From positions 2,165,596-2,229,595 of the forward strand of contig NC_061067.1 in the NCBI RefSeq assembly GCF_021917145.1: 64,000 bases of DNA, read 5' to 3'. The notes below the pieces were generated by a model. The model saw only the letters and a list, made by a program, of their open reading frames with translations. It made no database searches and was not told the DNA's origin. Below, in pieces: positions 11,461-62,794 of this stretch. The stretch's first letter is position 1; each line of letters begins with the position of its first letter. The position numbers were made by a program, and so were the translations under genes. Source of the DNA: Hypomesus transpacificus. Its lineage: Eukaryota > Chordata > Actinopteri > Osmeriformes > Osmeridae.

Positions 11461-14400
11461 ATGGGCTCTCAGTCCAGTTCTGGGATGTCCGGCGGTCGGG
11501 GTTCCAGCGGCAACCCAGACCAGTCTGATCAGGAATCCAACCAGAGCAGCGGCACGCGGGGCCGCAGAGCTGCAGAGAGACAGTCTACCGCTGAAGAGGA
11601 CGTTGATTTAGCGCAAGTGCTGGCTTACTTACTGAGGAGGTAAGATCCAACGGCCTTTGATCTTAGATCAAGAGGTTGCAGGTTCAGGGCAATACAGGTG
11701 TGTTTGTGTGCAGGGGCCAGGTGAGGCTGGTCCATGGCAGTGGGGCGACCGGGCTGCAGCTTGTCCAGTCATACTCGGATTCTGACGAGGACAGCGATGG
11801 AGCGTGGGAGGGTCGCCTTGGAGACCGCTACAACCCCCCAGGTAACCATGACAACGTAGAGGTTGTTTCACACACCAGTCATCACCTGATGATGTTTTGT
11901 GCTGTTCACACTAACAAAGAAAACTTGTCTTAGATAGGAGTGGGTTTTCACTACAAAATGTAATAGTGTCATGAAGCCTGTGTTGATGGAGGCCTGTGTT
12001 GATGGAGGCCTGTGTTGATGGAGGCCTGTGCTGATGGAGGCCTGTGTTGATGGAGGCCTGTGTTGATGGAGGCCTGTGTTGATGGAGGCCTGTGCTGATG
12101 GAGGCCTGTGTTGATGGAGGCCTGTGCTGATGGAGGCCTGTGCTGATGGAGGCCTGTGTTGATGGAGGCCTGTGTTGATGGAGGCCTGTGTTGATGGAGG
12201 CCTGTGCTGATGGAGGCCTGTGCTGATGGAGGCCTGTGCTCCTGTGTTCTAGTGGACTCCCAGCCAGACACTCAGGACGTGGACCAGAGTGAGATCAGGA
12301 CCCAGATCCTCCTGGCTACCGCCTCCTCAACCCTGAGGGGCAGAAACAGCTTCACACACATGCTCACAGAGGTACTGCCCCCTTTAACAGGCTGTGTTAA
12401 ACCTGCTCACAGAGGTACTGCCCCCTTTAGCAGGCTGTGTTAAACCGCATAAGACTGGGTCAGAATCTGTCTCATTATCGTGTCATGTTCAGACATACTT
12501 TCCTGTTATCCGAGATATCGTGCTCTCATGGTTATCGTGTGGTCCTAGTTAGTTATCCTGGGTTGTGTTCTGCAGAGGGAACAAGGCAGGTGTCTTGGCT
12601 CCAGTTTTTCTCATGGGGAGTGCAGCCGCATCCGCTCACAGTGAGTACACAGCAGGAAGGTATTAACACTTTTACTGTCTTGAAAATGTAACAAATTAAG
12701 GTGCGTCTCCTCAGCTTCCTGCCCAACTGTGTGTCGTGTAAAGACACCTACAGACAGAAAGCCTTCTGCGGGGTTTACAGTGAGGATGGCAACATGTTCC
12801 TCTCTGCCTGCCAAGGTAACTAACACTTTTTTCTAAACTAAGCTGATATCACAAGTCTGTACGTATGTACGTTGCTTCTGTTCAAGTTGACTGAAGAACT
12901 CACTTTGACACATTTTCTAATCCCATGGGTCACTAATCCTCCTGTCTGTCTGTATTTCTTCCTTGTCTGTCATCCCCCCAGACCAGAACATCCGCCTGTA
13001 TGACACCAGCAGGGGTGGGTTGAGTCTGAAGCGGGCGGTGAAGGCCAGGGATGTGGGCTGGAGCGTCCTGGACGCGTGCTTCTCCCCTGATGCCAGCTGC
13101 GTGCTCTACTCCAGCTGGTCTGACTACAGTAAGGCTAGGGAACCATCTAGAACCTTGTGGGCCACACCGGGCTGGTCAGCTCTACCACGGGTGCAATGAC
13201 AGTCACAGAGTAACTGTAGAACTGAGTAGAAGAGCAGTTTGGCTAATAGTTGACGGTGTATCAAATAAGAAGTAAACAAACTTCTTTCATTAAAAGAAAA
13301 TCACCCAGCTGGAGCATAATATGGTAGTCTTGATGGTGTTGACTTGCTGTCTCTCTCCCCCTGCAGTTCATGTGTGCAGTATTGAGGGAGACAGTGAAAC
13401 TCACACGGCGCTGGACCTCAAGTGAGTGTTTCCCTCCTAGCGCCTCTCACAGCAACACCTCTCCAGCACCACCCTCAGGTCCTCTCACAGCACCACCCTC
13501 AGGTCCTCTCACAGCACCACCCTCAGGTCCTCTCACAGCACCACCCTCAGGTCCTCTCACAGCTCCACCCTCAGGTCCTCTCACAGCACCACCCTCAGGT
13601 CCTCTCACAGCACCACCCTCAGGTCCTCTCACAGCACCACCCTCAGGTCCTCTCACAGCACCACCTCTCACAGCTCCACCCTCAGGTCCCCTCACAGCAC
13701 CACCCTCAGGTCCTCTCACAGCACCACCCTCAGGTCCTCTCACAGCACCACCCTCAGGTCCTCTCACAGCACCACCCTCAGGTCCTCTCACAGCACCACC
13801 CTCAGATCATCACTCGCTCACACATACAGCTGTGGCTTCTAATCCTGATGCTGTATCTGCATTTATCATCCAGCCAGCCAGCCAGCACAATATTAGGAAT
13901 CCTCACAGTTCATTCACTAGAACGGATGTACATGCTGTAGTCCTGTATGAGCCGGTAATTCATCGTACCGTGTAGCTGGTGATCTGAGGGGCGTGTCTTG
14001 TCTTGCAGCCCAGACGAGAGGAGGTTCTGTGTGTTCTCTCTGGCCGCGTCCACGGACGGGAAGGAGATCCTGGGAGGGTGAGTTCCACACGCTCCACACC
14101 ACTTCAGACTGCTGCTTAGGAGAGGACTCATTTATGTAAGCTTCTCTCTCTCTTCCACTCTCCTTTCTTTCTATCTCTCTCTCTCTCTCAGGGCAAACGA
14201 TGGCCGCCTCTATGTCTTTGATCGTGAACAGAACAAGAGAACATTAAAGGTCAGTGTGTGAGTGTGGCTTCACACCTCTACCTTTAAGTGGTACCAGAGA
14301 GCAGACCTACCCACACACACAAACACACACACTCTCCTTAGAACCCCTCTGTGACTGTCACAACCTGCCTGACCTCTACCATCTGTTTCTCCCTTTCCCT

Positions 14401-17400
14401 CTCTTCCTCTATACATTTCTCTCTGTCTCTCTCTCTACTGGTCTCCTGTACTCTTCACCCTCGCTCTCTCGTTTCTCCCCTGCAGATCGACGCCCATGAG
14501 GATGATGTGAACGCGGTGGCGTTTGCAGATAGCTCCTCCCAGCTGCTGTTCTCTGGCAGCGATGACGCGCTGTGCAAGGTCTGGGACCGCCGCACCCTGC
14601 GTGAAGACCGGCCCCAGCCCGTAGGTCAGCTGGCCGGGCACAGAGACGGCATCACCTTCATCCACAGCAAGGTACAGCCTCATCCACAGCAAGGTACACC
14701 CCCCCCCTCATCCACAGCAAGGTACACCCCCCCCCCTCATCCACAGCAAGGTACACCCCCCCCCCTCATCCACAGCAAGGTACAGCCTCATCCACAGCAA
14801 GGTACACCCCCCCCTCATCCACAGCAAGGTACACCCCCCCCCCCCTCATCCACAGCAAGGTACACCCCCCCCCCCTCATCCACAGCAAGGTACAGCCTCA
14901 TCCACAGCAAGGTACACCCCCCCCCCCCTCATCCACAGCAAGGTACACCCCCCCCCTCATCCACAGCAAGGTACACCCCCCCCCTCATCCACAGCAAGGT
15001 ACAGCCTCATCCACAGCAAGGTACACCCCCCCCCCTCATCCACAGCAAGGTACAGCCTCATCCACAGCAAGGTACACCCCCCCCCCTCATCCACAGCAAA
15101 GTACAGCCTCATCCACAGCAAAGTAAAGCCTCATCCACAGCAAGGTACACCCCCCCCCCTCATCCACAGCAAGGTACACCCCCCCCCTCATCCACAGCAA
15201 GGTACAGCCTCATCCACAGCAAGGTACACCCCCCCCCCCTCATCCACAGCAAGGTACAGCCTCATCCACAGCAAGGTACACCCCCCCCCCCTCATCCACA
15301 GCAAGGTACACCCCCCCCCCCCCCCTCATCCACAGCAAGGTACACCCCCCCCCCCCCCTCATCCACAGCAAGGTACAGCCTCATCCACAGCAAGGTACAC
15401 CCCCCCCCCCCCTCATCCACAGCAAGGTACAGCCTCATCCACAGCAAAGGCTATTTCTGTACTCCTAGCAGCGGAGCCGACAGCTACAAGCCGGTGCTCA
15501 AACACAACTGACCCTCGTTTTTTTTTCCGGCTAATTAACAGAGCTTCATGAAAAACTTTTGCCCTCAACAATTCTTAAGGGTACCATATCCATCTCGATG
15601 GACTTGCAGATCCGTTGGGTAATTTTCTCTGCTTGTTGTGCATCGCAGCTCCTCCGTGCTAACACCGAGAGCAGGATGCACCGCCACTAACCAGGGTCGG
15701 ATGTACGTTTTTCAAGTGGTACATCATTTGAGTCGTGGAGGAGTTGTATTTATACTCAGCTTCGCAGTGTTGGCAGTGAACAAAGTCATTTTTAAGTCAA
15801 AATGGTCTCACGCTACACTTTGCTGTGACCTCTTCCATGTTTACTTTTGAAATACATGGAAACTAGCCGGTAACTGAGTAGGCCTGTGGCGTTATTTCCC
15901 AAACATTGCCTTTGTGTGGTAAAATGTTTAATTGCTGCCACATAGCGAAATCCCTTGCATTCCTTCAAGACTCACACTACGCAACAGAACACGCATTAGT
16001 TTTATAGATGAAAAAATGATCTTAATGATCAATTAATCGATCGTCGATTAATGATGCCCATCCCTATTAGCTGGCCTGAAACGACATCACTACACTCCTA
16101 CTCCTGTTTCTGTCCACACCACAGCACAGTGAAACGACATCACTACACTCCTACTCCTGTTTCTGTCCACACCACAGCACAGTGAAACGACATCACTACA
16201 CTCCTACTCCTGTTTCTGTCCACACCACAGCACAGTGAAACGACATCACTACACTCCTACTCCTAAGTTTCTGTCCACAGCACAGCACAGTGAAACGACA
16301 TCACTACACTCCTACTCCTAAGTTTCTGTCCACAGCACAGTGAAACGACATCACTACACTCCTACTCCTAAGTTTCTGTCCACAGCACAGTGAAACGACA
16401 TCACTACACTCCTACTCCTAAGTTTCTGTCCACACCACAGCACAGTGACGTGGAACGAGATTCAAAATAAAAAATGGAAATAATTGAAAACGTTTCTGTG
16501 GTTTGTACCGCCCACCAGGGTGACGCTCGCTACCTGATCAGTAACTCCAAGGACCAGTCCATCAAGCTGTGGGACGTGAGGAGGTTCTCCCCCAAGGGAG
16601 GGCCTGGCTGCATCCCGGCTGGCCGTCACCCAGCAGAACTGGGACTACCGCTGGCAGCAGGTCCCCCAGAGAGGTGAGGAGGGGCTAGGGGGAGAGAGAT
16701 GAGGAGGGGCTAGGGGGAGAGAGATGAGGAGGGGCTAGGGGGAGAGAGGGACCTGGGGGGGGGCAGAGAGGGACCTGGGGGGGGGGAGAGAGGGACCTGG
16801 GGGGGGGGGGGGGAGAGAGGGACCTGGGGGGGGGGGGGGGGGAGAGGGACCTGGCAGGGGGGGAGAGAGGGACCTGGGGGGTGTAGAGAGGGACCTGGGG
16901 GGGGGGGGGGGGGGGGCAGAGAGGGACATGGGGGGTGTAGAGAGGGACCTGGGGGGGGGCAGAGAGGGACCTGGGGGGGGGCAGAGAGGGACCTGGGGGG
17001 TGTTAGAGAGGGACCCTGGGGGGGGAGAGAGGGACCTGGGGGGTGTAGAGAGGGACCCTGGGGGTGGGGCAGAGAGGGACCTGGGGGGGGGCAGAGAGGG
17101 ACCTGGGGGGGGGGGGGAGAGAGGGACCTGGGGGGTGTAGAGAGGGACCTGGGGGGGGGCAGAGAGGGACCCTGGGGGGTGTAGAGAGGGACCTGGGGGG
17201 GGGGGCAGAGAGGGGACCTGGGGGGTGTAGAGAGGGACCTGGGGGGGGGGCAGACTGTCAATAGCCACTGTCTATTGACTCACCTGGCATTGGCTCACCT
17301 GGCATTGGCCCATCTCCCCCATCCACCCCCCCCCAACCCAACCACACACACACTTCACCCCCCCCAACCACACACACACTTCACCCCCAAACCCCCCCAA

Positions 17401-21386: not shown

Positions 21387-24283
21387 TCAGTAGATGAGGG
21401 CCTTGCTGTCTCCTCTGGGCTTCTTGATCTTGTCGTAGTTCTTGTCGATGATGTCAAACAGCACAGCCTGGACAGCAGCAGGAGAACAGCATCATGACAT
21501 CAGCAGCCTTTCATCTCACCCCAACTGCCTCGTCACCAAACGCATCAAACAGAGGAACACAGCAAGGGGCAGATCTGCCACCAGAAAGACTGAACAGGAG
21601 AAGGGCACCATCTGCTAGATGACTACAGGCAGATAGAACTACAGGCAGATAGAACTACAGGCAGATAGAACTACAGGCAGATTAATGACATCACTGAGTC
21701 ATGGGAAGTTTTGGTCCTCAAATAAAAGATCCTAAAATACCTCTGTAATACATTCTCCTGTGAAATCTATACAGTGGTGCCTAGTGAATTTAAATTAATT
21801 CCTTTCAATGAAATGTAATTCGATATTTTCTAATTGTTCAACGTTGCATCTGTTCAGTGTACTCAATTGAGTCCTTTGTTTGTGTAATGAGGGGCTCCTC
21901 CCCTGGTCACTGCTAACAGCTTTGCATGGCCACAACCTGCTGGAGGGGGGAGGAAGTACGAGGAGGGAAACAGGAAGTGACCCGGGCTTACGTATGTGTT
22001 ACGTATCTCCAGGACCACCACTCTCAGCTCACAGTACTGGGACTGGTCCAGCTCATGCACCAGCTGTCTGTAGTCTCCCTGGAGACCCCGGAACACAAGT
22101 CAGGCCAGCAGGTCTGGGTGTACATGTGTATACTGTACACACACACACGTATACTGTACAATTACACACACACACGCAGGAATACTGACCACGTGAGGTT
22201 GTTTGGATGCTTTGGCCACAGCATCGCCCCTCTCGCTGTAGTACCTAACCACACCAGAACACGTCAGCATATTCACACACACACACCAGATCATCAGTTA
22301 ACACCCGTGTTCTCAGTATCACATCTTACTTGGAGATCTGCGTCTGGAATCCCTCGATCTTGGTACGAGTGTTGGTCAGAAGTTCAAACACCTTCTCCTG
22401 TGGAGCCACATGTAGGAATACTGGATCAGAGGTGTGCAGTTCAACAGTGTTATGGTAGTCAGGGTCACGTATCCTAACAGCTCACCTGTACAGCCACGCC
22501 AAAGTTGTTTCCATCCTCGATCTTGGGAATCTGGAGCTGAACCCACATGGATACCTGGGAGCACAGGGACACAAAAATACACTTAAATATGACTCATATC
22601 CTTTCACGATTTACTCTCTGCAGCGAGGTAAACAACTGACTGTGTTGAGCTTCTCCTTGAGGGTCTGGATCTGAGGTTTGATCTCCTTCAGCAGACGCTC
22701 CACCCTCTCATTACAGGCGATTGGGCCGCAGGGAGGACCTGGCAGAAGACCACAACCCTGTCTTTATGTCCAATATAATGTAGCACTTCTGTAATGCAGC
22801 AGCTTACTACTTAACAGACTCCACACAATCCCTGCTGTAAGGCCATCAACAATGGCTTTTATACATCGTTGAACACCCCCACCCTTTTCCCAATATAAAT
22901 CACTGCCTCACTGTTAGACAGAGATCCCCCCCCCCCTGACAGAGATCACATGACAGTGAGAACAGGGGTAGCCTTGTGCCACTTACACAAAAACAAAATA
23001 CATAAGATGGATATTAGGATTGTTGTACAGCAGCAGAAGCGTGGTACCACCATGTTCCCCCTCTCACCTGCATCCTCCTCCTCCTTGTCCTCCTTGTCCT
23101 CCTTGCCCTTCTTGCCCTCCTTGGCTTCCTTCTGCAGGATCCAGAGAAGAGGGTCAGTACAGGGCCTCTGGCTGGAGGCTTACACTAGAGCATGGATAGG
23201 AGGGTGTGTGTGTGTGGGGGGGGGGGGGAGGGTGGTGTATGTGGGGGGGAGGGTGTGTGTAGGGGGGGGGGGGGGGGGGGGGGAGGGTGTGTGTGGGGGG
23301 AGGGTGTGTGTGTGTGTGGGGGGGGAGGGTGGTGTATGTGGGGGGGAGGGTGTGTGTAGGGGGGGGGAGGGTGTGTGTGGGGGGAGGGTGTGTGTGTGTG
23401 TGGGGGGGGGGGGGGGTGTGTGTGGTGTCTCCACCTCCTCCTTCCTCTTCCTCTTGGCCTCCTCCTTCACAGGGTCAGGGATGGGGATGTCCAGAGGAGC
23501 CTTCAAGGTCACCAGGTTATCCAGGCTCAGCGAGCTCTGAAGAACATCCACACCAACATCACAATATCATAAACAGCCTGACTTCATGTCTCCTGTGAGT
23601 CTTGAGCGCTTGTGTTCCTGCCGCTGGAGCGTCAGGTGTCTGTCTGCCTTCTTACCTTCAGCTGCATCTCCATCTCTACAATCTGTCTGCTGTCTTACCT
23701 TCAGCAGCATCTCCATCTCTACAATCTGTCTGCCTTCTTACCTTCAGCAGCATCTCCATCTCTACAATCTTCTGAGGGAAGAAGCCTGTAAGCAGGGCCT
23801 CAGCCTGTATGACACAGGGGACAGATGTGTTTCCTAAATATGAAAAGCTCGTAGTTATGCATGATGAAGTGCTTAAGTTGTTCAAACTGGCTATGTACCT
23901 CCTTGGTAAGTTGCTTGCAGAAGTCATCGACCTGTAGTGTGGTATTTGGAGAGGAGGAGAGTGATCACTGTATCACTGATATCTCACTTACAGACACCCA
24001 ACTCTGACTGTGTCCGAGTTGTCTGACAGGTAGTTTCACTCCACTGCGGGTCAGACGGGTCGAGTTCCATCTGGTGATCTCATGGCCTAACACTTTACTA
24101 TCAGTTAACTTAACACACGGGGAACTATGCTCCTAAAACGCTGCCTAGGCAGACTATGCTGTCTTGGTATCCATCTCGGCTGTCGATAATTTCATTTAGT
24201 TACTTTGAAGTGAATTTAAAAGAAGACAACGTCGCTATTCTTACCTGTTTCTTCGACTCCGGGCGGATGTCTATGGATGTCAT
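21387..24283 (-). CDS. psme1: Proteasome activator complex subunit 1 (PA28 alpha)
   Basis: Subunit of the 11S/PA28 ring that caps the 20S proteasome and aids production of MHC class I peptides. Eleven exons (plus coordinates, read right to left): 24245-24283, 23899-23931, 23742-23804, 23435-23536, 23068-23131, 22641-22738, 22486-22554, 22330-22397, 22190-22244, 21992-22078, 21387-21467. Together they give 252 residues (human PSME1 249). The protein starts MTSIDIRPESKKQ, then TLKAPLDIPIPDPVKEE, a Lys/Glu-rich linker (KEGKKGKEDKEDKEEED), GPPCGPIACNERVERLL, IPKIEDGNNFGVAVQEKVFE, YYSERGDAVAKASKQPHV, GDYRQLVHELD and the C-terminus KKPRGDSKALIY. The KKPRG..K..IY tail and the Lys/Glu linker identify the alpha rather than the beta subunit (psme2). 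The exon 3 end with its donor is present three times. Confidence 0.95.
21619..21684. repeat. 16-bp tandem repeat in psme1 intron 10
   Basis: About four copies of CTACAGGCAGATAGAA. Confidence 0.85.
23199..23434. repeat. GT/G-rich repeat abutting psme1 exon 4 donor
   Basis: GGAGGGTGTGTGTG units with long G-runs, read as CA/C-rich on the transcribed strand, starting right after the exon 4 splice donor (minus strand). Confidence 0.85.
23651..23780 (-). repeat. 43-bp repeat of psme1 exon 3 end plus donor, three copies
   Basis: On the minus strand each copy reads ATTGTAGAGATGGAGATG, then CTGCTGAAG (CAGCTGAAG in the last copy), then GTAAGA. Donors sit at 23741, 23698 and 23655, spaced exactly 43 bp. 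Confidence 0.95.
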
Positions 24284-34325: not shown

Positions 34326-37249
34326 TTATTTGTTGACTTGAGCGTTGAGGTCTTCAGGGTCCTGTGCAGGCAGCTGCCCCCCTCCCTTCCTCACCTCAGA
34401 GTACTCTGTCTTTTCTGAGCACTTCTCCAAATTCCTGTTGGCTCTGTGCTGCAGTTTGGAGAAGTCTATTTCACCATACTGGATCTCCTCAGACTGGATT
34501 GGAGGTTCCTCTGCTTCCACAGGCACCCTGGTGGCATGGCTGGTGGCATGGCTGGTGGCATGGCTGGTGGCATGGCTGGTGGCATCTGTCTCTTCACTCC
34601 CAACAGGCAGGGTCTGCCACACAGGCCACAGACGAGGATAAACCACCGCAGTTAAACGAGATGCTTAACATGGCTCACAGCACACTGAGGGACCATGTTA
34701 GTGGAATTTACCAAAAACTTCACAGGTTCCCTATAAGCCTTAACACACACACACATACACACACTGAGGAAGCATGTTACAGTTCTGTACCAAACAACAC
34801 ACAATTTCGTAATCTACAAAATTCTATTTTCACCACTTCCTTGTTTTTGTTCAACTTACTACAATAAAATATATTGTTGTATTGACTATTATGATATGTA
34901 TAAGAGAAAGCGTGCTCACCTGCTCTGACGTGCTGGCTGTCATCTTTGCTCCCCTGTCGACAGAACCGCTGGATTTTCTCCTCCTAAAATACATTTATTT
35001 TTAATTTAAGAGCATCAATTTGTCTACATGAAGATCTCCAGGGTCTTTCCTCACCAGACAGCCAGCAGAACGAGGAAGAACATGGCTGCAGACCCTCCTG
35101 TGATCGCATAGTACAACATGTTTGTCGGTTGCTCTATAAACAAACAAACAGAACGTGAATATATGAAGTTGTAAATGCTGTTACCGTTTACACAACACGT
35201 GTTGTGCAAAAATCGGTCGAAAACTGTCCAGGGACCGCTGTTCTAATGGCTTGCCATACTGTTCAGCAAATGTTAGATGTAAGGGTTCGAACATTCGCCG
35301 AACAATATGGCAAGCCATTTGAACAGTGACCCGATGTCAGTTTTCGATAGGTCACCGATTTCGGTACAACAGTGCGGCTGACTTCTATTGATGCATATAA
35401 GGGCCACCTCTAATCACCAGCTGAACCTCAGGTGAACTCTGCTGGCCAAGGCGGTTTCTGGCCACGCAGGTGTAGCTTCCTTTCTCAGCTTCGGTCACAT
35501 TGATGGTGAGGGTGTCTCCAATACCAACTGACGTGTTTCCGCTGATCCTGACCCAGCTGAAGGTACTGACCGGAGGGTTAGCACTGCTGGTGCAGGTCAG
35601 AGTCACGTTGCTACCAACTGACACCGGATCAGTTGGGTGGATGGAAGCGGAGGTATTTTGTGGAGAAACTGAGAGGGGATTCATAAGACATGAATAATGA
35701 TCCAGTATCTGCTCATTCAAGTAGACGGAGAATGTTTGAACAACATGCTACTGATGCATCATGTTTTATCACTCATACCAAAACAAACAATAATGTTACA
35801 GCAGTACACGTTACGAAATAACTATTCTTGGAACGTGGATGCTCTCGTGTAAATATAAAATAGGAGGATGGATGGACGGACGGACGGACAGACAAATATA
35901 TAACTTACATGAAACATTGAGAGTCACAGTTACTTCTGATGCGTAGGCCTTCTGACTCTCAGTTGGATATATAGCTGTACAGGTGATGTTCGTCCCATGG
36001 TGACGGGCAGCGGTAGTGAAGTTCACCGTGAGCTGGGCTGACTTGGTTCGGTCTGAATTCTCCTGAAGTGTTTTGACTGTAGCTGTCCCCTTTGGGCCAG
36101 TCCATTTCAGCTCAGTGGGGTGTGTGGGGCAGGGTGCCACAGCAGAGCAGGAGACAGAGACAGAGACGCCCTCCTTCAGACTCCCTGGGTCGGTGATGGT
36201 CGGTCTGGGAGGCACAGCTGAAGAACATTACAAAGTTATGCCATCTACCATCTACCATCTACCATCTGCCATCTACCATCTGCCATCTGCCATCTGCCAT
36301 CTACCATCTACCAGACCTTCAGTCACTTAAAGCCCAGGAATATCAACATGTATCATATCATATTCAGACAATGGTGTGAGTTGTTATTGAGGATCCAGAT
36401 AATGTTGTAGGCCTAATCTACGCATTAAAGCTATTAAGTAGTTACATTGTAGAGAATATAAAAGGGTGCCGTCAATTGTTAAATATTTAACAGTTTTGTG
36501 ACACAAGTCTATAGGCTACTAAAAGGATGCCAGCTGTTTTCCGTCTTTCATGCAAACGATACAAAACTGTGAAGAAAGTCTGTTCAACATTCTTTTACCG
36601 TGAACATTTATTTTACAAGCATTGGCTGTGTCTGTTGCTCTGAATGATGGGTCCTCTATTCTGAAGTAGTAGGACTGTGCATCATTTAGCATTGTTACAT
36701 TGTTCAGCAATGAGGTGCAGTTTCTCTCTGTGAGGTTTCCAATTATCTTCATTGAGTAGATATTCTCCGGGTTACTGCTATTGTAGATGACATTCCGTGG
36801 ATTATTGGCAAATAGTGGATCGTTGATTATCCAAACTCCTTTTGAGTTGGATGTAAAGATTGGTACAGTAGTGGTAGTGGGACTAAAGAGACATGGGATT
36901 AGCACGCAGGAGCCTGACAGTGCTGTGATGCTGCTTGGCATCGTAGCAGTGACATCACGTCTAGCCGCAGCACCTGCAACAGGGACGCGCGCATGATCAA
37001 CCTCAAACCACAGCCGTTAATCAACAGAAAGTTGTTTTATCGTTCAAGTGTTCTTTACAAGTAACATATTAAAATGTGAACACAATGCTGAGTATCAGCA
37101 TATTTCTTTACATAATTATTATAACAAATACTACTACTACAATTAATAGGTTTTAAAACCAATGTATACTTTTGAGTTTGTTGGCATTTAAACTCACCTG
37201 ACAGGAAAAGAACGATGAGAAACATCCTATTCCAAATCTGATGTTCCAT
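34326..37249 (-). CDS. Siglec-like inhibitory immune receptor (CD22/MAG-like)
   Basis: Type I membrane receptor of the sialic-acid-binding Ig-lectin kind. Seven exons (plus coordinates, read right to left): 37198-37249, 36599-36973, 35909-36217, 35408-35668, 35055-35133, 34920-34983, 34326-34613; 475 residues with all phases closing. Order: signal peptide (MFLIVLFLSG), V-set domain (MPSSITALSGSCVLIPCLF, with several N-glycosylation sites), C2-set domain (VSVSCSAVAPCPTHPTELKW ... NITCTAIYP), second C2-set domain (NVTLTCTSSANPPVSTFSW ... GSYTCVARN), membrane segment (ITGGSAAMFFLVLLAVW), then a cytoplasmic tail with an ITIM (IQYGEI) and an ITSM-like site (TEYSEV). These would recruit SHP phosphatases. 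The tail contains an in-frame 12-bp repeat (ATSH). The exact fish orthologue cannot be fixed from sequence alone, so no symbol is given. Confidence 0.85.
34528..34585 (-). repeat. 12-bp coding repeat, ATSH
   Basis: Four copies of GCATGGCTGGTG on the plus strand, encoding ATSH repeats in the Siglec cytoplasmic tail. Copy-number change would keep the frame. Confidence 0.93.
35201..35370. mobile_element. Foldback MITE in Siglec intron 4
   Basis: The sequence is a 170-bp imperfect hairpin. The left arm GTTGTGCAAAAATCGGTC...ATGGCTTGCCATACTGTTC pairs with the right arm GAACAATATGGCAAGCCATT...ACCGATTTCGGTACAAC. The loop is about 40 bp. Short size, no coding frame and the palindrome point to a MITE; the family is not identified. 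Confidence 0.7.
36236..36314. repeat. 7-bp repeat (CCATCTA/CCATCTG)
   Basis: About ten copies, in the Siglec intron 2 close to the exon 3 acceptor (minus strand). Confidence 0.85.
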
Positions 37250-38477: not shown

Positions 38478-41400
38478 TTATTTACCCTTCTTAAACTTTC
38501 CGGCCGTGGCTCCAGTCTTCAGCTTCTTCTTTGTGGATCCCTTCATCTCAGGCTCCTGAGCAGAGGGGAAGAGGAGGAGATGACCAACCCAGATACAAAA
38601 CTGTTGCAACTCCACACAGCCCACCAGGAGCCAAGATGGCGTCCGGTTGTCACTACCTTGCGTTTGGACGACAGAGATCCCGTGACGGAGAAGAAGGAGT
38701 CCAGCCGGCCTTGAGTGCTGCCCTGGCGGCTTTTCAGGATCTTCTTACAGCCGTTACGCATGCGGTCCTCACTGTCAACACACACACACACGTTTGTTTT
38801 TCTATCCTAGTGGGGTCCGACCACTTACTTCCATTCAAAATTGTGTTCTGTCTAACAACTAACTTTTTAGGTAATTCAGTTTCTACCCCTAAAAAAGGAT
38901 TTGAAGTCTCCTTGACAAGGTCCATTTTCTTGTCTCACTATACTTGTGAAGAGTTTAGTGGTTCAAGCAAGGGTAGTTACACAAGACAAACAGGTCCAGC
39001 ACCACAGCAGGGTGAGTAGAGAGGGAGGGTTCACACCTGAACTGTTTCTCTGCACACCTGAACAGTTTCTCTGCACACCTGAACAGTTTCTCTGCACACC
39101 TGAACTGTTTCTCTGCACACCTGAACAGTTTCTCTGCACACCTGAACTGTTTCTCTGCACACCTGAACTGTTTCTCTGCACACCTGAACTGTTTCTCTGC
39201 ACACCTGAACTGTTTCTCTGCACACATGAACTGGACAAGTCCGTCCTCATCCGGCTCACTCCACTTCAGCTCCAGACAGGAGCAGTCCACCACGTCTGGG
39301 GTGAGGAACAGACCGCGTGCCTCCTTGTACAGCCAGTCTTCCGGTACAGGGTGCTTCTACACCAGAGGAGACAACAGTCACAGGTCTGAGTTCACAGGTC
39401 AGAGTTCTTAAAGGAGCAAATTCTCTCCCAGGTCATCTGTCAGCTTCATCACTATCAACAGCATGTGACCCAGCCTATGCAGTACACTGCATTGTTGGTC
39501 TCAAAGGTTTATCCCGCTAGACGAGGGGAGCGCTGTGAGGATCCCTCTGTGGACCAATGAGTGAGGAGCGGTGTGTGTGTGGGAGCTCACTGATAGGTCG
39601 ATGTTGTCGAGGATCTCCTCGATGGAGCCGTGCTGCCTGATGAGGTCCATGGCCCTCTTGGGCCCGATGCCCTTGATGGTGCCGCAGTAGTCACAGCCCA
39701 GCAGGATGCACAGATCTATGAACTGAGATGGAGGGGAGGGTCAGATAACATGGTACCAACAGGGCCCAGGGCCCTGGACTGGGGAGGAGGTGTGGTGTGG
39801 GGGGGAGGAGGTGTGGTGTGGGGGGGAGGTGGTGTGGTGTGTGGGGGGGGGGGGGGTAATGCTGAGGTACCTGTTCGTGAGTCAGACCGATGTCCTGCAG
39901 AATACGACTGAAATGGAACTCCTGGATAGGCAACTTTCTGTCAAAGACAAAAACACTAAATCTTCAGTGAGCTCAAACAACCAAAAATAGGATACATCTA
40001 CTTGATACCTTTACATTACATTTGAGTAAGGCTGCCACTAACGACTATTTTTCTATCGATTAATCTGTAGACTATTTTATCAATTAGTCGATTAATCTAA
40101 ACGATTAATTTTCCTTAAAAAAAAAGGCTTACAAATTAAAGTGCAAAACTGTAGGTTTAAACTATCAACTCCAACGTTAATTAAAATATTTAGATAAGGT
40201 ACATAACATGTCCCAACAAACCTGAACACACACCCCTTTTAAACTAAAAATTCCAAGGTGCTGGTTCTGGGCTGGTGCTTATACCAGTTCGGTAATGATT
40301 CAATAGCGATACTCGCCAATTATCTAAGAACCAGGTAGTCTACATTTACCACACACTAGAGCCGGAGTTGGGCTAACGTCTTTAAATCACTTCATACGCC
40401 TCCATTGTCCAAGCAACGCGTCATGGTTACGGTTAACAAGTTAGCTAAAGAGCAAGAGCTAACCTAGAGAGCCATCCTATCAACCAACGTAGAATAAACC
40501 CAGATTCTAACCTACCTAAACATTTATTCAATGGAAACTCTAAGGTAGCAGGCAGACGACTTTATAGCTTTAATAATGCATGTATTTAGCAGCTACAATG
40601 ACAACATATATTAAAAAGGCTCTCCCTAATAAACATGAATACACAACACCATACAACGGTGGTTTTGCCTTTTCTGGCAGTCCAGTATAGCGCCTGTATG
40701 TTTTCTTTTCAGGTGCTCGTGCAAAGCGCAAGTGCTGCTGTGGTATGCCATTGCAACTTTGCACAATGTACAAACCACCTTATGTTTGGTGATGGCGTTA
40801 AGTCGAAGTGTTAAGTCGAAGTATTCCCATACTTTTGAAGCCTCTGGTATTTGGGGACTCGGGTTTCGGAGCCCAGTCGGACTCTGCTGCAGCTGCCATG
40901 ATATTTGAGCGTTGACTGGAGCCGACCAATAACTTGAGCCAACAACGACTGACGTCATGCAAGCACCAATTACGTTGTGATATTGAATAACATTTGTTAT
41001 AATGAATTGAAGCGTTTTTTGTATTTTCTTATAATTAACAACAATTTTAAAAAGATGCATCGATTTAAAATATTGATGTCGACGCATTTTCAGCGTCGAC
41101 GTCGTTGATGTCGACGAATCGCGGCAGCCCTACATTTGAGTACATCACATATGAGTACATTACATGTCGGGAGTGTGGGGGGAGGAGCTAACGGTGTGAG
41201 TATTGGGGAGGAGCTACAGGTGTGAGTATGGGGCAGGAGCTACAGGGGTGAGTATGGGGGAGGAGCTAAAGGTGTGAGTATGGGGGAGGAGCTACTTGGC
41301 TTCGCTGGCGGTGAGGTGTCTGAGCAGGACGCCCGTCCCAAACGTCAGCCCGTCCATGTCCTCCGTCGCCGTGGCGAACACCTTCCCTGCTTTCACCAGA

Positions 41401-49750: not shown

Positions 49751-51752
49751 CTAAAGGCCGGCCTCGTGGGGGGGCCCGGGGAGGACAGGGTTCCCCTCGT
49801 CTCTGTTCATGCTGGTGATGGAGACGGCCTCCGCGGGGCTGTAGCCAGGGTGGGTGTACTGGTAGTGGGTGACAGCAGGGGGCCGAGGCCAGCAGGGGGC
49901 CAGGGAGCGGGGCCCGGGCTGGGGGGAGGGGGGAGGAGGGGCAGGGTAGGCCCCAGGACCGGGGTAGTAGGGCAGCTTGGAGACGCTCTGTCCTGATTCC
50001 CTCATCGGGTGGGTGTAGTAGTCTGGAGTCTGAGGACCGGCTGGAAACTGGCACACAGAGAGAATGTTATGATCACACACGTAGCAATAAACATTTAAAG
50101 GAGAGGGCTCCCCTCATGTCCTGTATCATCCTGCCTTTAAGACCTCATCCAGACTGTGAAGAGGCCTCCATTGTGGATGAGTTACTTTAAGTCCGTGCCT
50201 CAAGAGTCTCTGTTATTGAACAGGACACATTGGCTGGACTACAGATGACCCAATTATTAACACACCCATCTACATGATATAATGACACATGTATCCATAG
50301 TACCTGGTGTCTAATGAGCTCACCTGGTTGGCTGTGGGGGTGCTGGGGTAGCCTGCTGGGCCTGTTGGGGTGCTGGGGTAGCCTGCTGGGCCTGTGGGGG
50401 TGCTGGGGTAGCCTGCTGGGCCTGTGTACCTCTCAGACACCCAGCTATTGTCCTTCTGGTGTCTCCTAAGCTTCATCCTCCGGTTCTGGAACCAGGTCTT
50501 CACCTAACACACGTTTACATTATTCATTAGCAGACTAAAATGTGATTGATCCAAACTCACGTACAAACAGTAGATTAAGGATTAGAATTGCACAGCTCTA
50601 ACAGTATTTCGCGGTCAGTGTCATGAACTGTGTTTTCCAGGCACAGTTCAGAACTAAATCACCAACCACAAGTATATGCGTTTCAAGTGAAGTAATGATA
50701 TTGGTCTCACCTGTTTGTACGTCAGCCCGGTCAGCCTTGCCATCGTTTTCATCTCCACCGGGGTGAGGTATCTCTGCATGCTGAACCGGTGGGTCAGGGC
50801 GGTCATTTGGCTATCGGAGAAGGCCGCCCGCGCCTTGGGTTTCGTCTTCGATGTCGACAGGGGAACGGGTCCGGGGTTACTGACCGCCTCGCCGCCCGGA
50901 GGAATGGGGTCTTCTTCAGGCAGAGAGCTGGATACGTTTCCAGGGCTCCCGCCGTCTGTCTCCTCGCCCGGATCGTCCCGCTTCCAGTCGGCAGGGTGGG
51001 TCTGAGGAACAAAGCCTCTGTTGCTCCCTGAACTCCAAGAGTCTGAACGAGACGAAAAGTAAAATACCAAATTTGAGAATGCAAACGAGAGCCACACGGC
51101 GGCGCCATACATTACTGAGACCTCCAAAAAACGCACAGTCGTCGCTCTAACTACTTTCAAGATGGCTTTGAATTCATGGTTGGCGGTGGAGATCGCAGCC
51201 CTTGACCGGGACCCAGAAAATGTAGGTTACCGGTGCCGTGCACATCACTTAATAGTAAATATTAGCTTGCAGATGTGTATTGCTTGCCAAAGTTAATTAG
51301 CCATCTATCTAGGTCTACTAGCACACTAGCTAGCTAGCAGTGCTAGCTATACACATACCTGGCGATGTGTGAGCCTCAGAATCACTTGTTGGGGGGTCGC
51401 TATTTACGTGCTCAACTTTAATCCTTTCATCAAGTTCGGTCCGGTTGTGGGACAGGAAAAGCCGCCCGGTCTGCATGTGAGAGTCGCCAAAATACAGGAC
51501 ACCCGGTCCTGGGTAATGGACGTTATTTACAGCGATGTGTTCTGGGCTCCGGGGTGGCGATTCTTGCTGCGGCGCCGCGAGCTGCGGATTCGAATAGTAG
51601 CCTCCATTAGCCCCCGTTTGATACGCGGCCTCGGCCCAACCCGGTAAGTTTGAGTTATTTTGCTCGGATCCCGTTTGGTACATGAGACCATATGCGTACG
51701 CGTGGTAGGACGGGTTGTAGTTGTAGTTAACTGGGATCTTCCAGTCTGCCAT
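49751..51752 (-). CDS. nanog: Homeobox protein Nanog
   Basis: Pluripotency and maternal-zygotic transition homeodomain factor. Four exons (plus coordinates, read right to left): 51359-51752, 50711-51042, 50324-50503, 49751-50047; 400 residues, phases closing. The start is fixed by MADWKIPVNYNYNPSYHAYA, matching fish Nanog. The homeodomain spans exons 2 and 3: KPKARAAFSDSQMTALTHRF, QRYLTPVEMKTMARLTGLTY, then KQVKTWFQNRRMKLRRHQK with the Nanog/NK-type NRRMK helix 3. After it comes a 10-residue repeat (GPAGYPSTPT, three copies), then a Pro/Tyr-rich tail (SKLPYYPGPGAYPAPPPPSP). The intron inside helix 3 is at the position expected in Nanog. Placement between tm9sf1 and ipo4 differs from mammals. 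Confidence 0.93.
50334..50427 (-). repeat. 30-bp coding repeat in nanog exon 3
   Basis: Three copies of a 30-bp unit, GGGGTAGCCTGCTGGGCCTG being its core on the plus strand, encoding GPAGYPSTPT. One copy has a single silent change. Confidence 0.93.
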
Positions 51753-56314: not shown

Positions 56315-59300
56315 TGTGTGGTGCAGGACCAGGCCAGCGAGGCCATGGAGGTGTTGGATGAGCTAATGGAGAGTGAAGTATCCATCATCGTCCCTCACAT
56401 CAACGACATTGTCCACTTCTGTCTGGAGGTCAGCGTTGTGTCCTGTGCCATGTCTCTGTCACGTGGGTTGTTGGAACGAGGTGGTGCTCATGCTGTGTGT
56501 GTGTGTGTTCCAGATGAGTGCTGACACCACTCTCAGTGATTCCCTGCGTGTGAAGGCTCTCTCCTGCATCGCTTTCCTCATTCGGCTCAAAAGCAAGGTA
56601 AACAAACCAGTCTCTCCCCACGCCTCTCTCCCCACGCCTCTCTCCCCACGCCTCTCTCCCCACGCCTCTCTCCCCACGCCTCTCTCCCCCCCTCTCTCTC
56701 TCCCCACGCCTCTCTCCCCACGCCTCTCTCCCCCCCTCTCTCTCTCCCCACGCCTCTCTCTCTCCCCACGCCTCTCTCCCCCCCTCTCTCTCTCCCCACG
56801 CCTCTCTCCCCACGCCTCTCTCCCCCCCTCTCTCTCTCCCCACGCCTCTCTCCCCACGCCTCTCTCCCCACGCCTCTCTCTCTCCCCCCTCCCTCTCTCC
56901 CCACGCCTCTCTCCCCACGCCTCTCTCCCCACGCCTCTCTCCCCACGCCTCTCTCCCCACGCCTCTCAGGAGCCGGTAGTGATGCTTCTCTCCTCTCCTC
57001 TCAGACTGTGCTGAAGCAGAAGCTGCTGAATCCCATCCTGCAAACAGTGTTTCCTGTGCTGAGCGCAGCGCCCCCTCCTGGCCAGGAGGACCCGGAGGAC
57101 GAGGAGAACGACGACGAGGACGATGTGGATAACGAGAGTCCCAAACACTTCGCTGCTCAGGTTTTAACTCCACTCTCCCTGTTTACAGAACACTGAAGTC
57201 GATTTGAAGACACTTGAGTCACTTGATTTGAAGAGAAATATTTTTATTTTATTTTAATGAAAAAACTTTATATGTGTTTCAGGTGATTGATACCATGGCC
57301 CTCCACATGCCACCAGAGAAACTGTTTCAGCAGCTGGTGAGTGGCCGTATAGAAGTTGATCACAATCAATAAGTTGATCTGACCCTTTCACAGAGAACTA
57401 GCCTGGTGGATGGAGGAGTAGCTCTGGTGGTGACCTGTGTGTGTGTGTCTGTGCCAGATGCCCCTCACCCAGGCGTGCCTGGCCAGTGACAAGCCGTATG
57501 AGAAGAAGGCAGGCCTGATGTGTCTGGCTGTGCTGGCTGAGGGCTGTGCTGACCACATCCGCACCAAGTACGTCTCAAACACCCTACATCCTCTCCTCAC
57601 CTGTCAGCCCCATGCCCTGAAGCTGACTGTGTGTGTGTGTGTGTGTGTCAGGATGCTGTCGTCCATGCTGCAGACAGTGTGCCAGAGTCTGTCAGACAGT
57701 AACCAGGTGGTTCGCAGTGCTGGGCTCTTCGCTCTGGGACAGTTCTCTGAGCACTTGCAGGTCAGGCCCGTACCAGCATACTAGAGGACACCTAGTACAC
57801 CAGAGGACACCTGGTACACACTAGAGGACATCTAGTACACTAGAGGACACCTAGTACACCAGAGGACACCTGGTACACACTAGAGAACACCTAGTACACC
57901 AGAGGACACCTGGTACACACTAGAGGACACCTAGTACACCAGAGGACACCTAGTACACCAGAGGACACCTAGTACACTAGAGGACACCTAGATGTGAGCC
58001 TGATGTGCTGATATGCACCTGCCCACCATAGTGAAGTCCTTGTTTGTGAACACTTACTTGGCGATGAAACCTGATTGTGATCTCCCCCCCAGCCGGAGGT
58101 GAGTAAGTACTCTGCAGAGCTGATGCCCCTGCTGCTGGGGTACATGTCAGGCCTGAACCAGGCCAAGATCGGACACGTCACCAAGGCCTTCTACGCCCTG
58201 GAGAACTTCCTGGAGAACCTGGGTGAGCCATGCTGGTCCACCTCACACACACAACATCCCAGTCACCTGTGTGTGTGTGTGTTCAATCATACCACAAACA
58301 CTTCGACCTTGCAGTGATCCACCACCTCTATCTGCCCCCTCTATCGGCCCCCTCTATCTGCCCCCTCTATTTGCCCCCTCTATCTGCCCCCTCTATCTGC
58401 CCCCTCTATCTGCCCCCTCTATCTGCCCCCTCTATCTGCCCCCTCTATCTGCCCCCTCTATCGGCCCCCTCTATCTGCCCCCTCTATCTGCCCCTGCCAG
58501 GGGAGGAGATCCAGCCCTACCTGCCCACCCTGATGGACACCATGCTGTCTGCTCTGAACAATGCTGACAACCTGAAGCTAAAAGAGCTGGCTGTCTCTGC
58601 TATAGGAGCCATAGGTACACCTAGACACACTGAGCTGTCTCTGCTATAGGAGCCATAGGTACACCTAGACACACTGAGCTGTCTCTGCTATAGGAGCCAT
58701 AGGTACACCTAGACACACTGAGCTGTCTCTGCTATAGGAGCCATAGGTACACCTAGACACACTGAGCTGTCTCTGCTATAGGAGCCATAGGTACACCTAG
58801 ACACACTGAGCTGTCTCTGCTATAGGAACCATAGGTACACCTAGACACACTGAGCTGTCTCTGCTATAGGAGCCATAGGTACACCTAGACACACTGAGCT
58901 TGATCCTAGCCTCAGTACAGCTGTCAATAGAGATGATCAGGCTGACTCTAGGATTAGGCACAACGGATGTCCAGGAAGCTGGTAGCGTGTGTGCGTTGAC
59001 CCTGTGTGTGTGTGTGTGTGTGGTCCTCAGCTAACGCTGCTAAGGAGCTGCTGGTGCCCTACTTCCTGCCTGTCATCGACAGTCTGAAGGGCTTCCTGAC
59101 TAACACCCGGGACGAGATGCGCTCTCTGCAGACCCAGGCCCTGGGTGAGACCCTGACCTCTGACCTCCCCTGACCTCTGACCCTGTGCTCCTCTGACCTC
59201 TGACCTTGTCCCCCCTGAACTCTGTCCCTGTCCTCCAAAGTCTAAATACGTCATATGTCAGGACTTGCTATCTCAGCGCTAGATCATTTGACTGCAGATC

Positions 59301-62300
59301 AAGAGATTGCAGGTTCAAATCTTCCCATGTATGTAGCTTTGGGTAAAAGTGTCTGCTAAATGAAGTCCTTCTGGTTCCTGTTGTGCGTGTTACTGCTGCT
59401 GCTGTGTGTGGCTGGCAGACACCCTGTCGGTGCTGGCTCGCACCGTGGGCCACGACGTGTTCAGCTCCCTGGCTGCAGAGTGCGTCCAGCTGGGCCTCAA
59501 CCTCATCGACGCCGTGGACGACCCAGACCTGCGACGCTGCACGTACGTGTGTGTGTCAGTGTGTGTGACAGTGTGTGTTCCCTGGTCAGGGCTGTATGGA
59601 GTTAGATTAGTTTCATAATTCAAACAAACAAACGCAACACGATTCAAACAAACTTAACACGATCCAAACAAACGTAACACGATTCATACAAACATAACAC
59701 GATTCAAACAAACAAACGTAACACGATTCACAAATGTATTTCGTGATTCACAAATGTAACGCGATTCACAAATAAATGACCCTATTACATTCGTTTGCAA
59801 CCTGACAAACACAAGTTACAAATCCCTGCATTCGTTGGTGTGAATCCTTGCATTCGTTCGTGTGGATTTTTGGAACTTTCCTGACGCGCTTTGATCCACA
59901 AATGCATTTTTTCTAAAAGATATCCTCAGCAGCCTATCAGGTCGTCTCTTCCAATTTTAGCCAATCACCGGAGAATGTCTAATATGGGTAGACGGGCTCT
60001 GCGTTAGCCTAGGAAACACGGAAAATGACTACACATGAATCCTGCCATTCTCAACAATATTTAATCAGGTATGATCATCGGTTTAATAAGATTAACAAGC
60101 AATATTTCACCTACATGCAACCAGACGACATTGCTCATGATCTGAAGGAGACGATGTCCGTCATAATGGCAGGTTGTTGAAGTCCACATAGACACGTTAA
60201 TGTGATTGGCTAAAATTGGAAGAGACGACCTGATAGGCTGCTGAGGATATCTTTTAGAAAAAATGCATTTGTGGATCAAAGCGCGTCAGGAAAGTTCCAA
60301 AAATCCACACGAACGAATGCAAGGATTCACACCAACGAATGCAGGGATTTGTAACTTGTGTTTGTCAGGTTGCAAACGAATGTAATAGGGTCATTTATTT
60401 GTGAATCGCGTTACAATTGTGAATCACGAAATACATTTGTGAATCGTGTTACGTTTGTTTGAATCGTGTTACGTTTGTTTGTTTGAATCGTGTTATGTTT
60501 GTATGAATCGTGTTACGTTTGTTTGGATCGTGTTAAATTTGTTTGAATCGTGTTGCGTTTGTTTGTTTGAATTATGAAACTAATCTAACTCCATAGGGCT
60601 GACAGTGTGTGTGACAGTGTGTGTTCCCTGGTCATGGCTGACAGTGTGTGTGTCAGTGTGTGTTCCCTGGTCAGGGCTGACAGTGTGTGTGTCAGTGTGT
60701 GTTCCCTGGTCAGGGCTGACAGTGTGTGTTCCCTGGTCAGGGCTGACAGTGTGTGTGACAGTGTGTGTTCCCTGGTCAGGGCTGACAGTGTGTGTTCCCT
60801 GGTCAGGGCTGACAGTGTGTGTTCCCTGGTCAGGGCTGACAGTGTGTGTGACAGTGTGTGTTCCCTGGTCATGGCTGACAGTGTTCTCTCTGGGTGCAGG
60901 TACAGCCTGTTCTCTGCTGTGTCCAGTGTCAGTCCAGCCTGCCTCAGCCCCCACCTCACCACCATCACCACCACCATGCTGCTGTCTCTCAGGTCCACCG
61001 AGGGAGTCACGGTCAGCCTCACACTCACAGATACACACACACTCACAGATACACACACACTCACAGATACACACTCACACTCTGGTGTCCTGCCAGGCTC
61101 ACCTGGAGGAAGAGAAGCAGTTTGTCCTGCTGGACGATGATGATGATGATGAAGAGGGGGACGCCATCTTGGAGGATGAAGTGGAGACAGATGGACGAGA
61201 CGTGTCAGGGTACACACACACACACGCTACAGACACAACCCTCTCTAGTTGTGGTGTACACAGTGCAGTGTTTCCTCTAGGTGCCCCCATGGCATCAGAA
61301 ACAGGGCTGTACTAAAGGCCGTGTATCAGCAGTGATTGTTAGAGTGCATGTCGGAGAATAGCACGGACTAACGCTTCACACCGCAGTTGAGATTGCGTGT
61401 GTGCGTCCTTGAGAACTGTAAGTCGTATAACATATGTTGTCAGTGAGTCCATTTAAGCCTGTTATTGTATTAGTCTATAGTTCTTGCACATTTAAATCAA
61501 GTTAACTGGTGTTTTTTGTTGTTTGTATTCTTCCCCTGCTAGCTAAATTGCAAGTCTGTTGATTCGTTAGCGATTGCTGCCCTTGCTCACGTTTGTATTT
61601 TAGGTGCATTATTATGCTGAAGTAGTTTTAATTAATAAATAGTGGGTTTATTGTTATTATTTTCTACAGAATGCTTAGCCTATCAAGATCAAATGAAGCA
61701 GACAGTGTACTTGCTTTCGAGTGGCCTACCTGAATCGATAGGCTAGGCTACTGACCATTTACAAGAAGTTGTTACGCCAATTATTAATTGGCAGCATTTA
61801 TGTCATTTAGAACATACTTGAGTGGAAGGTGTCTTTAAGTAGCCTAACCTTATTGCTTTAGGGGAAATAGGACGAAAATATGTGCAATATTACATTAGGT
61901 ATTAGACTATGACATTAACCTGCTCCGAAATATAGGGTTAGGACTTAGTTTCGTCTGGGCGGGGGTTGTTCGGACAGAGCTGCCCCCCCACTGCTAAAGA
62001 GAATCCCAAAGGAAACTCTGCTGTGGTTGTGCTGTGTGTTAGCTTCAGTGTGGAGAACGCCTACATCGATGAGAAGGAGGATGCCTGCGATGCCCTGGGA
62101 GAGATGGCCTTCAACACAGGGTACACACTCAGCACACACACTCAGCACACACACTCAGCACACACACACAGGGTTGCAGGTCTTAGTCCTGGTGTGTCTC
62201 CTCAGATGTTCCTTCCAGCCCTTCCTGGAGTCCAGCTTCCAGCAGGTGTTCCAGCTGCGGGATGTGAGTGTTCCTGGGGGTGCGGCCTCAAGCGTGTGTT

Positions 62301-62794
62301 AGGGTACAAGTGGTGTGTGTGTGTTGTTGAATCATGTGCCCCACTACCCTGAGCGTGCTGTCCCCTCAGTTCCCCCTCTACCCTGAGCGTGCTGTCCCCT
62401 CTACCCTGAGCGTGCTGTCCCCTCTACCCTGAGCGTGCTGTCCCCTCTACCCTGAGCGTGCTGTCCCCTCTACCCTGAGCGTGCTGTCCCCTTTACCCTG
62501 AGCGTGCTGTCCCCTCAGTTCCCCCTCTACCCTGAGCGTGCTGTCCCCTCTACCCTGAGCGTGCTGTCCCCTCTACCCTGAGCGTGCTGTCCCCTCTACC
62601 CTGAGCGTGCTGTCCCCTCTACCCTGAGTGTGCTGTCCCCTTTACCCTGAGCGTGCTGTCCCCTCAGTTCCCCCACGAGGACGTGCGCAGGGCAGCCTAC
62701 GGGGCCATGGGACAGTTCTGCAAAGCTCAGCACAAAGTCTGGCAGGAGAATCCTACTGAGGCCAACCAGCAGGGTAGTTATCTCTCTGTCACTG

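Follow-up and report, generated by a model that had tools for sequence, protein, structure and literature searches.

The 64-kb stretch of DNA analysed here (the window) carries a tandem repeat at the end of exon 9 of fen1 that multiplies the splice donor, and the question arises of which donor closes the exon and whether the repeat serves FEN1 or reflects a habit of the genome. The window lies on contig 8 of a 437-Mb genome of 376 contigs and contains fen1, dcaf11, pck2, a gene for a PA28 subunit, tm9sf1, nanog and ipo4, a gene content that fits a teleost. FEN1, IPO4, DCAF11 and PA28 were matched to chains of the PDB, PEPCK, EMP70 and the homeodomain were identified by Pfam, and the remaining gene names are presumed.

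Results

The exon-9 donor of fen1 lies in a nine-copy array

The gene model of fen1 comprises 11 coding exons on the minus strand. The initial annotation had described a 21-bp array with nine in-frame donors at the end of exon 9 and, indeed, nine copies of CAG/GTGTG were found on the minus strand (donors at 39204, 39183, 39162, 39141, 39120, 39099, 39078, 39057 and 39036), all of them open. The donor was said to read GTGTGC in every copy, which applies to copies 1–8, and the ninth reads GTGTGA. Every unit was said to read CAEKQFR without a stop; all nine are stop-free when translated, six reading CAEKQFR and three CAEKLFR. The inner copies of the unit differ at a single base, which marks the array as either young or homogenised. 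When the whole 437-Mb genome was searched at the DNA level, with simple repeats skipped, no other copies of the array came up; the two matches were the array itself and an unrelated GTGTGCAGAGAGA-like simple repeat.

Splicing from donor 1 gives a product of 380 amino acids, exactly the human length as had been claimed, and this product aligned with human FEN1 (chain 8yjh_D) from 1–380 to 1–380 with an E-value of 1.7e-193 and one 1-residue gap per side. The predicted gain of seven residues per later donor was also borne out: each inserts its heptad ahead of SEDRMRNG, and donors 2–9 give 387 ... 436 amino acids. SEDRMRNG opens exon 10, which we take to encode the PCNA-binding region. The 21-bp unit is composed of the end of exon 9 and the adjoining donor GTGTG(C), and only its exon-side copy is present in the donor-1 product, where it retains the conserved protein, as seen in the FEN1 alignment. 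In both respects the array is built like a mirage, the boundary-crossing tandem repeat of amphioxus. Besides the arrays, fen1 intron 6 contains an open reading frame (40626–41129, minus strand) which by eye looks like a fragment of a BED-finger/hAT transposon; 40800–41129 gave no Pfam match.

Arrays span the donors of other genes

A sample of the genome was taken by Pfam matches and comprised ten chaperonin (CCT) genes, seven cullin genes and one Sec1-family gene, of which two share the contig of the window, at a distance of approximately 1.8 and 3.8 Mb, and 16 come from different contigs. Of 122 Pfam matches, 97 were used (chaperonin 46/53, cullin 46/48, Sec1 5/21), and 43 arrays were found. 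Together with the window, this gave ten donor-spanning arrays (Table 1), six in the window (fen1, PA28, ipo4 and three in dcaf11) and four elsewhere (two in CCT7, one each in a cullin gene and VPS45). Acceptor-spanning arrays were not seen in the 18 genes outside the window. The spanning arrays were compiled by eye, and the automatic count differed from this list: it overlooked the second array of L026, and it misplaced two donors, those of L037 and of the third array of L038, which by eye lie approximately 33–36 bp from the array, the latter having been wrongly called spanning.

Table 1 Features of the fen1 exon-9 region and arrays at other splice sites. Positions are those of the window unless a locus is named.
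Feature	Position	Strand	Description
fen1 donor-spanning minisatellite	39032–39233	−	21 bp x 9.6, 97% matches, nine donor copies
fen1 exon 9 closed by donor 1	39205–39356	−	152 nt; gene model and alignment
fen1 donor 1 (GT), most probably the used one	39203–39204	−	sequence, and by analogy with sister arrays
fen1 donor 9 (GTGTGA), intron-proximal	39035–39036	−	probably holds the ancestral intron start; sequence and analogy
fen1 exon 10, SEDRMRNG...	38657–38771	−	gene model; acceptor after exon 9 at 38771
fen1 exon-6 donor-adjacent array	41178–41294	−	26 bp x 4.5; begins 1 bp inside the intron
dcaf11 exon-3 donor array	12361–12446	+	43 bp x 2.0; donor 12372
dcaf11 FIHSK-exon donor array	14658–15447	+	donors mostly 22–34 bp apart, 27 donor copies; donor 14672
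dcaf11 third donor array	16668–16748	+	25 bp x 3.2; donor 16674; later copies AT instead of GT
PA28/psme donor array	23639–23774	−	43 bp x 3.2; donor 23741
ipo4 donor array	58590–58900	+	44 bp x 7.1; donor 58615
ipo4 acceptor array	62345–62674	+	23 bp, 149-bp higher-order period, three CTCAG/TTCCCC copies; acceptor 62668
CCT7 donor arrays, two neighbouring exons	L026 1599–1952 and 2186–2412		62 bp x 5.5 and 61 bp x 4.1
cullin donor array, on the contig of the window			44 bp x 2.3
VPS45 donor array	L040 3152–3834	−	37 bp x 18.5; at least 14 copies CAG/GTGAGA

Four further observations were made in the window. A dcaf11 exon has an apparent one-base frame slip after WDVRRFSPK (16585–16602, plus strand), which may be a sequencing error, a polymorphism or real. 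Within an ipo4 intron, a segment of approximately 1 kb (59618–60572) carries mirrored tandem repeats at both ends and by eye looks like a non-autonomous DNA transposon. Directly after the nanog-like homeodomain exon, a 30-bp repeat of 3.2 copies (50332–50426, minus strand) reads TGPAGYPSTP in one frame, and near a gene presumed to be siglec-like, a 12-bp repeat of 4.8 copies (34528–34585, minus strand) reads as HATS units in one frame.

Arrays lie at donors more often than at acceptors

For the window, 68 introns were modelled in eight genes, and tandem repeats with a period of at least 10 were merged to 55 array loci. Left out were the genes presumed to be thtpa and zfhx, two exon pairs that scored poorly (one of PA28 and the last of nanog) and a dcaf11 pair that is really a single exon; a few weak-scoring ipo4 junctions were retained. 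Seven of the 136 junctions were found inside arrays, six of the 68 donors and one of the 68 acceptors. When the 55 arrays were placed at random and allowed to cover up to 20 exonic bases, 0.97 donors (P = 0.0013) and 1.00 acceptors were expected, and P for all junctions combined was 0.002; with up to 40 exonic bases, the values were 2.03 donors (P = 0.015), 1.89 acceptors and a combined P of 0.096. Therefore, donors are struck in excess, albeit modestly under the permissive null.

That donors are not special, and that minisatellites form throughout short introns of gene-rich DNA with some of them landing on junctions, is a serious possibility, if short of an even one. Arrays are indeed dense, with 55 in the 64-kb window and 92 in the 200 kb of 20 random 10-kb loci, and the overlap with junctions as a whole exceeds the permissive null only modestly. 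Further, donor-like motifs were not enriched in the array units of the 20 random loci (2 of 50, compared to 3 in the reversed control and a mean of 1.3 after shuffling), where arrays need not adjoin exons.

Against chance landing stands the position of the arrays within introns. The 43 intronic arrays of the window are distributed over 29 of the 68 introns. A distance of at most 25 bp separates 20 of them from a donor and 9 from an acceptor. When each array was slid freely within its own intron, introns shorter than 80 bp being omitted, 6.4 were expected per side; the donor count was reached in 0 of 20,000 draws, and the acceptor count had a P of 0.16. Without the 12 dinucleotide-like arrays, 14 of 31 lay near a donor and 5 of 31 near an acceptor with 3.8 expected (0 of 50,000 draws and P = 0.33, respectively; sign test 14 vs 5, P = 0.064). 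In the genes elsewhere, nine arrays within 25 bp of a donor were found vs two near an acceptor (automatic count, in which two of the nine are misplaced as judged by eye; two-sided P = 0.065), and pooling with the window gave 29 vs 11 (P = 0.0064). Donor-spanning arrays exceeded acceptor-spanning ones by 10 vs 1 (two-sided P = 0.012), and the parts of this count amounted to 6 vs 1 in the window and 4 vs 0 in the other genes (P = 0.125 each). Several of these sign tests (0.125, 0.125, 0.064 and 0.065) are weak alone, as chance landing would have it, but the excess near donors and both pooled comparisons argue against it.

Five genes with sister arrays would need the first donor

All nine fen1 donors score alike (3.9–4.0), and RNA folding revealed no masking fold over the later donors in comparison with shuffled sequences (z = −0.15, ordinary). 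Nothing in the sequence itself favours donor 1. Given the equal scores and the ordinary fold, order of transcription or exon definition would be the likeliest basis of a donor-1 choice. Against a donor-1 choice, the available part of one report describes for two competing donors that SRSF1 bound just upstream suppresses the intron-distal one (PMC5585400).

The joins made by donor 1 were compared with known proteins for six of the ten arrays, one each in fen1, CCT7, dcaf11, VPS45, ipo4 and PA28. Apart from fen1, the join was gap-free over 114 of 114 residues in CCT7 (first of two arrays) and over 74 residues in VPS45, matched 85 of 85 residues in DCAF11 (one of three arrays) and was colinear in PA28 apart from one 1-residue gap; in IPO4 the best stretch ran from 264–474 to 335–545 (211 vs 211), as judged by its end points. 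Downstream donors outside fen1 were in frame and open in 9 of 57 cases, counted by sequence pattern, so that diverged copies are uncounted, in eight arrays with GT-bearing copies; the dcaf11 array whose later copies lack GT was excluded. Most of the others shift the frame or hit a stop, and the last donor does so in all eight arrays. Since CCT7, DCAF11, VPS45, IPO4 and PA28 are colinear at donor 1 and later donors are mostly unusable, these genes depend on the choice of the first among several near-identical donors, and the failure of the last donor in all eight means that an earlier one must usually be used. By analogy, fen1 probably uses donor 1, too. Unlike in the sister genes, the later fen1 donors spare the frame (8 of 8 in frame and open), and fen1 is the sole array among the ten whose entire donor series is usable; selection against their use should therefore be weaker.

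What the initial annotation had made of this array, a repeat-driven series of FEN1 isoforms, fits these data less well. It holds that several donors are used and give isoforms of 380, 387, ... 436 amino acids with heptad repeats before the PCNA-binding tail, and alleles of varying length, which we now regard as unlikely. The nine donors are all in frame, open and equally strong, and seven residues per step correspond to about two helical turns, which speaks for such a series; however, arrays of the same design on the donors of dcaf11, PA28, ipo4, CCT7, the cullin gene and VPS45, with so few usable copies, are unable to serve such a purpose, and the mirages of amphioxus reportedly undergo normal splicing, according to the accessible part of the source (PMC3087553). 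By chance, one array in three or so would have a period that is a multiple of three, and the in-frame period of fen1 is probably such a one-in-three accident. Since similar arrays lie on the splice signals of other genes, the array looks more like a quirk of the genome than like a special set of FEN1 variants.

It is very unlikely that the intron-proximal ninth donor, probably the ancestral one, dominates and gives a FEN1 of 436 amino acids with 56 extra residues. Among identical competing donors the intron-proximal copy is classically preferred, which would favour donor 9, contrary to a donor-1 choice, and donor 9 keeps the apparent original intron start. Nevertheless, in no sister array with GT-bearing copies does the last donor leave the frame intact and open, and the length of human FEN1 comes from donor 1. 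An assembly artefact multiplying a short repeat is hardly credible, since, even though there is a single assembly and copy numbers of arrays are error-prone, the fen1 units bear distinct variants (the three CAEKLFR units, the terminal GTGTGA) and similar arrays with different units lie on three further contigs or regions.

Discussion

We are fairly confident that the fen1 array is a passenger minisatellite seeded on the donor of exon 9, and thereby a mirage in a vertebrate, with donor 1 as the true exon end. It would have arisen when a segment across this donor was duplicated in tandem, possibly through slippage between two near-repeats, TTCATGTGTG in the exon and TTCAGGTGTG at the donor, which lie 21 bp from each other, as read from a single sequence. 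Such slippage would explain the chimeric GTGTGC in copies 1–8, with the original GTGTGA kept in the last copy. More copies may have been gained later through unequal exchange or slippage. The exon-side copy would have stayed the true exon end and donor, the remaining copies being intronic passengers, and donor 1 may be the one spliced since it is the first to be transcribed and gives an exon closest to the normal length.

Amphioxus mirages are described, in the accessible parts of the two reports, as tandem repeats across exon–intron boundaries of both types that are variable in length and leave regular splicing undisturbed; they were found in the genes for Adh3, globin and troponin C, with imperfect ones in PGBD5 and units of 10–72 bp in Adh3 (PMC3087553, PMC3902484). 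As far as these descriptions go, the fen1 array is similar in that its unit crosses the boundary in many copies bearing the splice signal, its unit length falls into the published range and its exon-side copy keeps a coding role. It differs in that the host is a teleost-like vertebrate, donors are struck more than acceptors and the fen1 series is fully in frame. Length instability together with normal splicing is reported for the amphioxus mirages in these parts, and the fen1 array is likened to them by its sequence alone. Among the matches listed in the open-access literature, mostly titles and starts of abstracts, boundary-spanning minisatellites of vertebrates were not found. The mirage kind is already known; its density in a vertebrate and the donor bias look new.

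Tandem alternative donors are pairs of closely spaced 5' splice sites. The fen1 array resembles them in having several close in-frame donors, but has nine copies that stem from a minisatellite and of which donor 1 is probably the one used. With coding minisatellites, such as those of MUC1 and PRDM9, it shares a stop-free unit whose length is a multiple of three; unlike them, it is probably for the most part intronic and untranslated. The introns of the gilthead seabream growth-hormone gene hold polymorphic minisatellites (PMC3045353), and the fen1 array likewise sits in a fish intron; splice sites inside the unit are not described for the seabream minisatellites in the accessible part of that report.

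More tentatively, and with considerable doubt, we suggest that 5' splice sites in this fish lineage are hotspots of minisatellite birth through a process tied to exon ends or to splicing, that a strict first-donor rule holds over up to 27 near-identical donors, and that fen1 is the array found where a slip of this rule would still yield working, heptad-lengthened proteins at every copy.

How a choice is made among identical neighbouring splice sites is a long-standing question. Since in this genome single donors are present in series of 2 to 27 copies, in genes such as CCT7, VPS45, ipo4 and fen1, one RNA-seq data set could show how donors are chosen. The occurrence of donor-side minisatellites in a vertebrate, with an apparent first-donor choice, is the more interesting result compared to FEN1 isoforms. 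If true genome-wide, the donor-side bias would suggest that exon ends undergo tandem duplication from a so far unrecognised source, and would indicate a route to altered exon ends or intron gain, as proposed for amphioxus mirages in the accessible parts of those reports, and fen1 would be a natural place for variation in protein length if the first-donor rule leaks.
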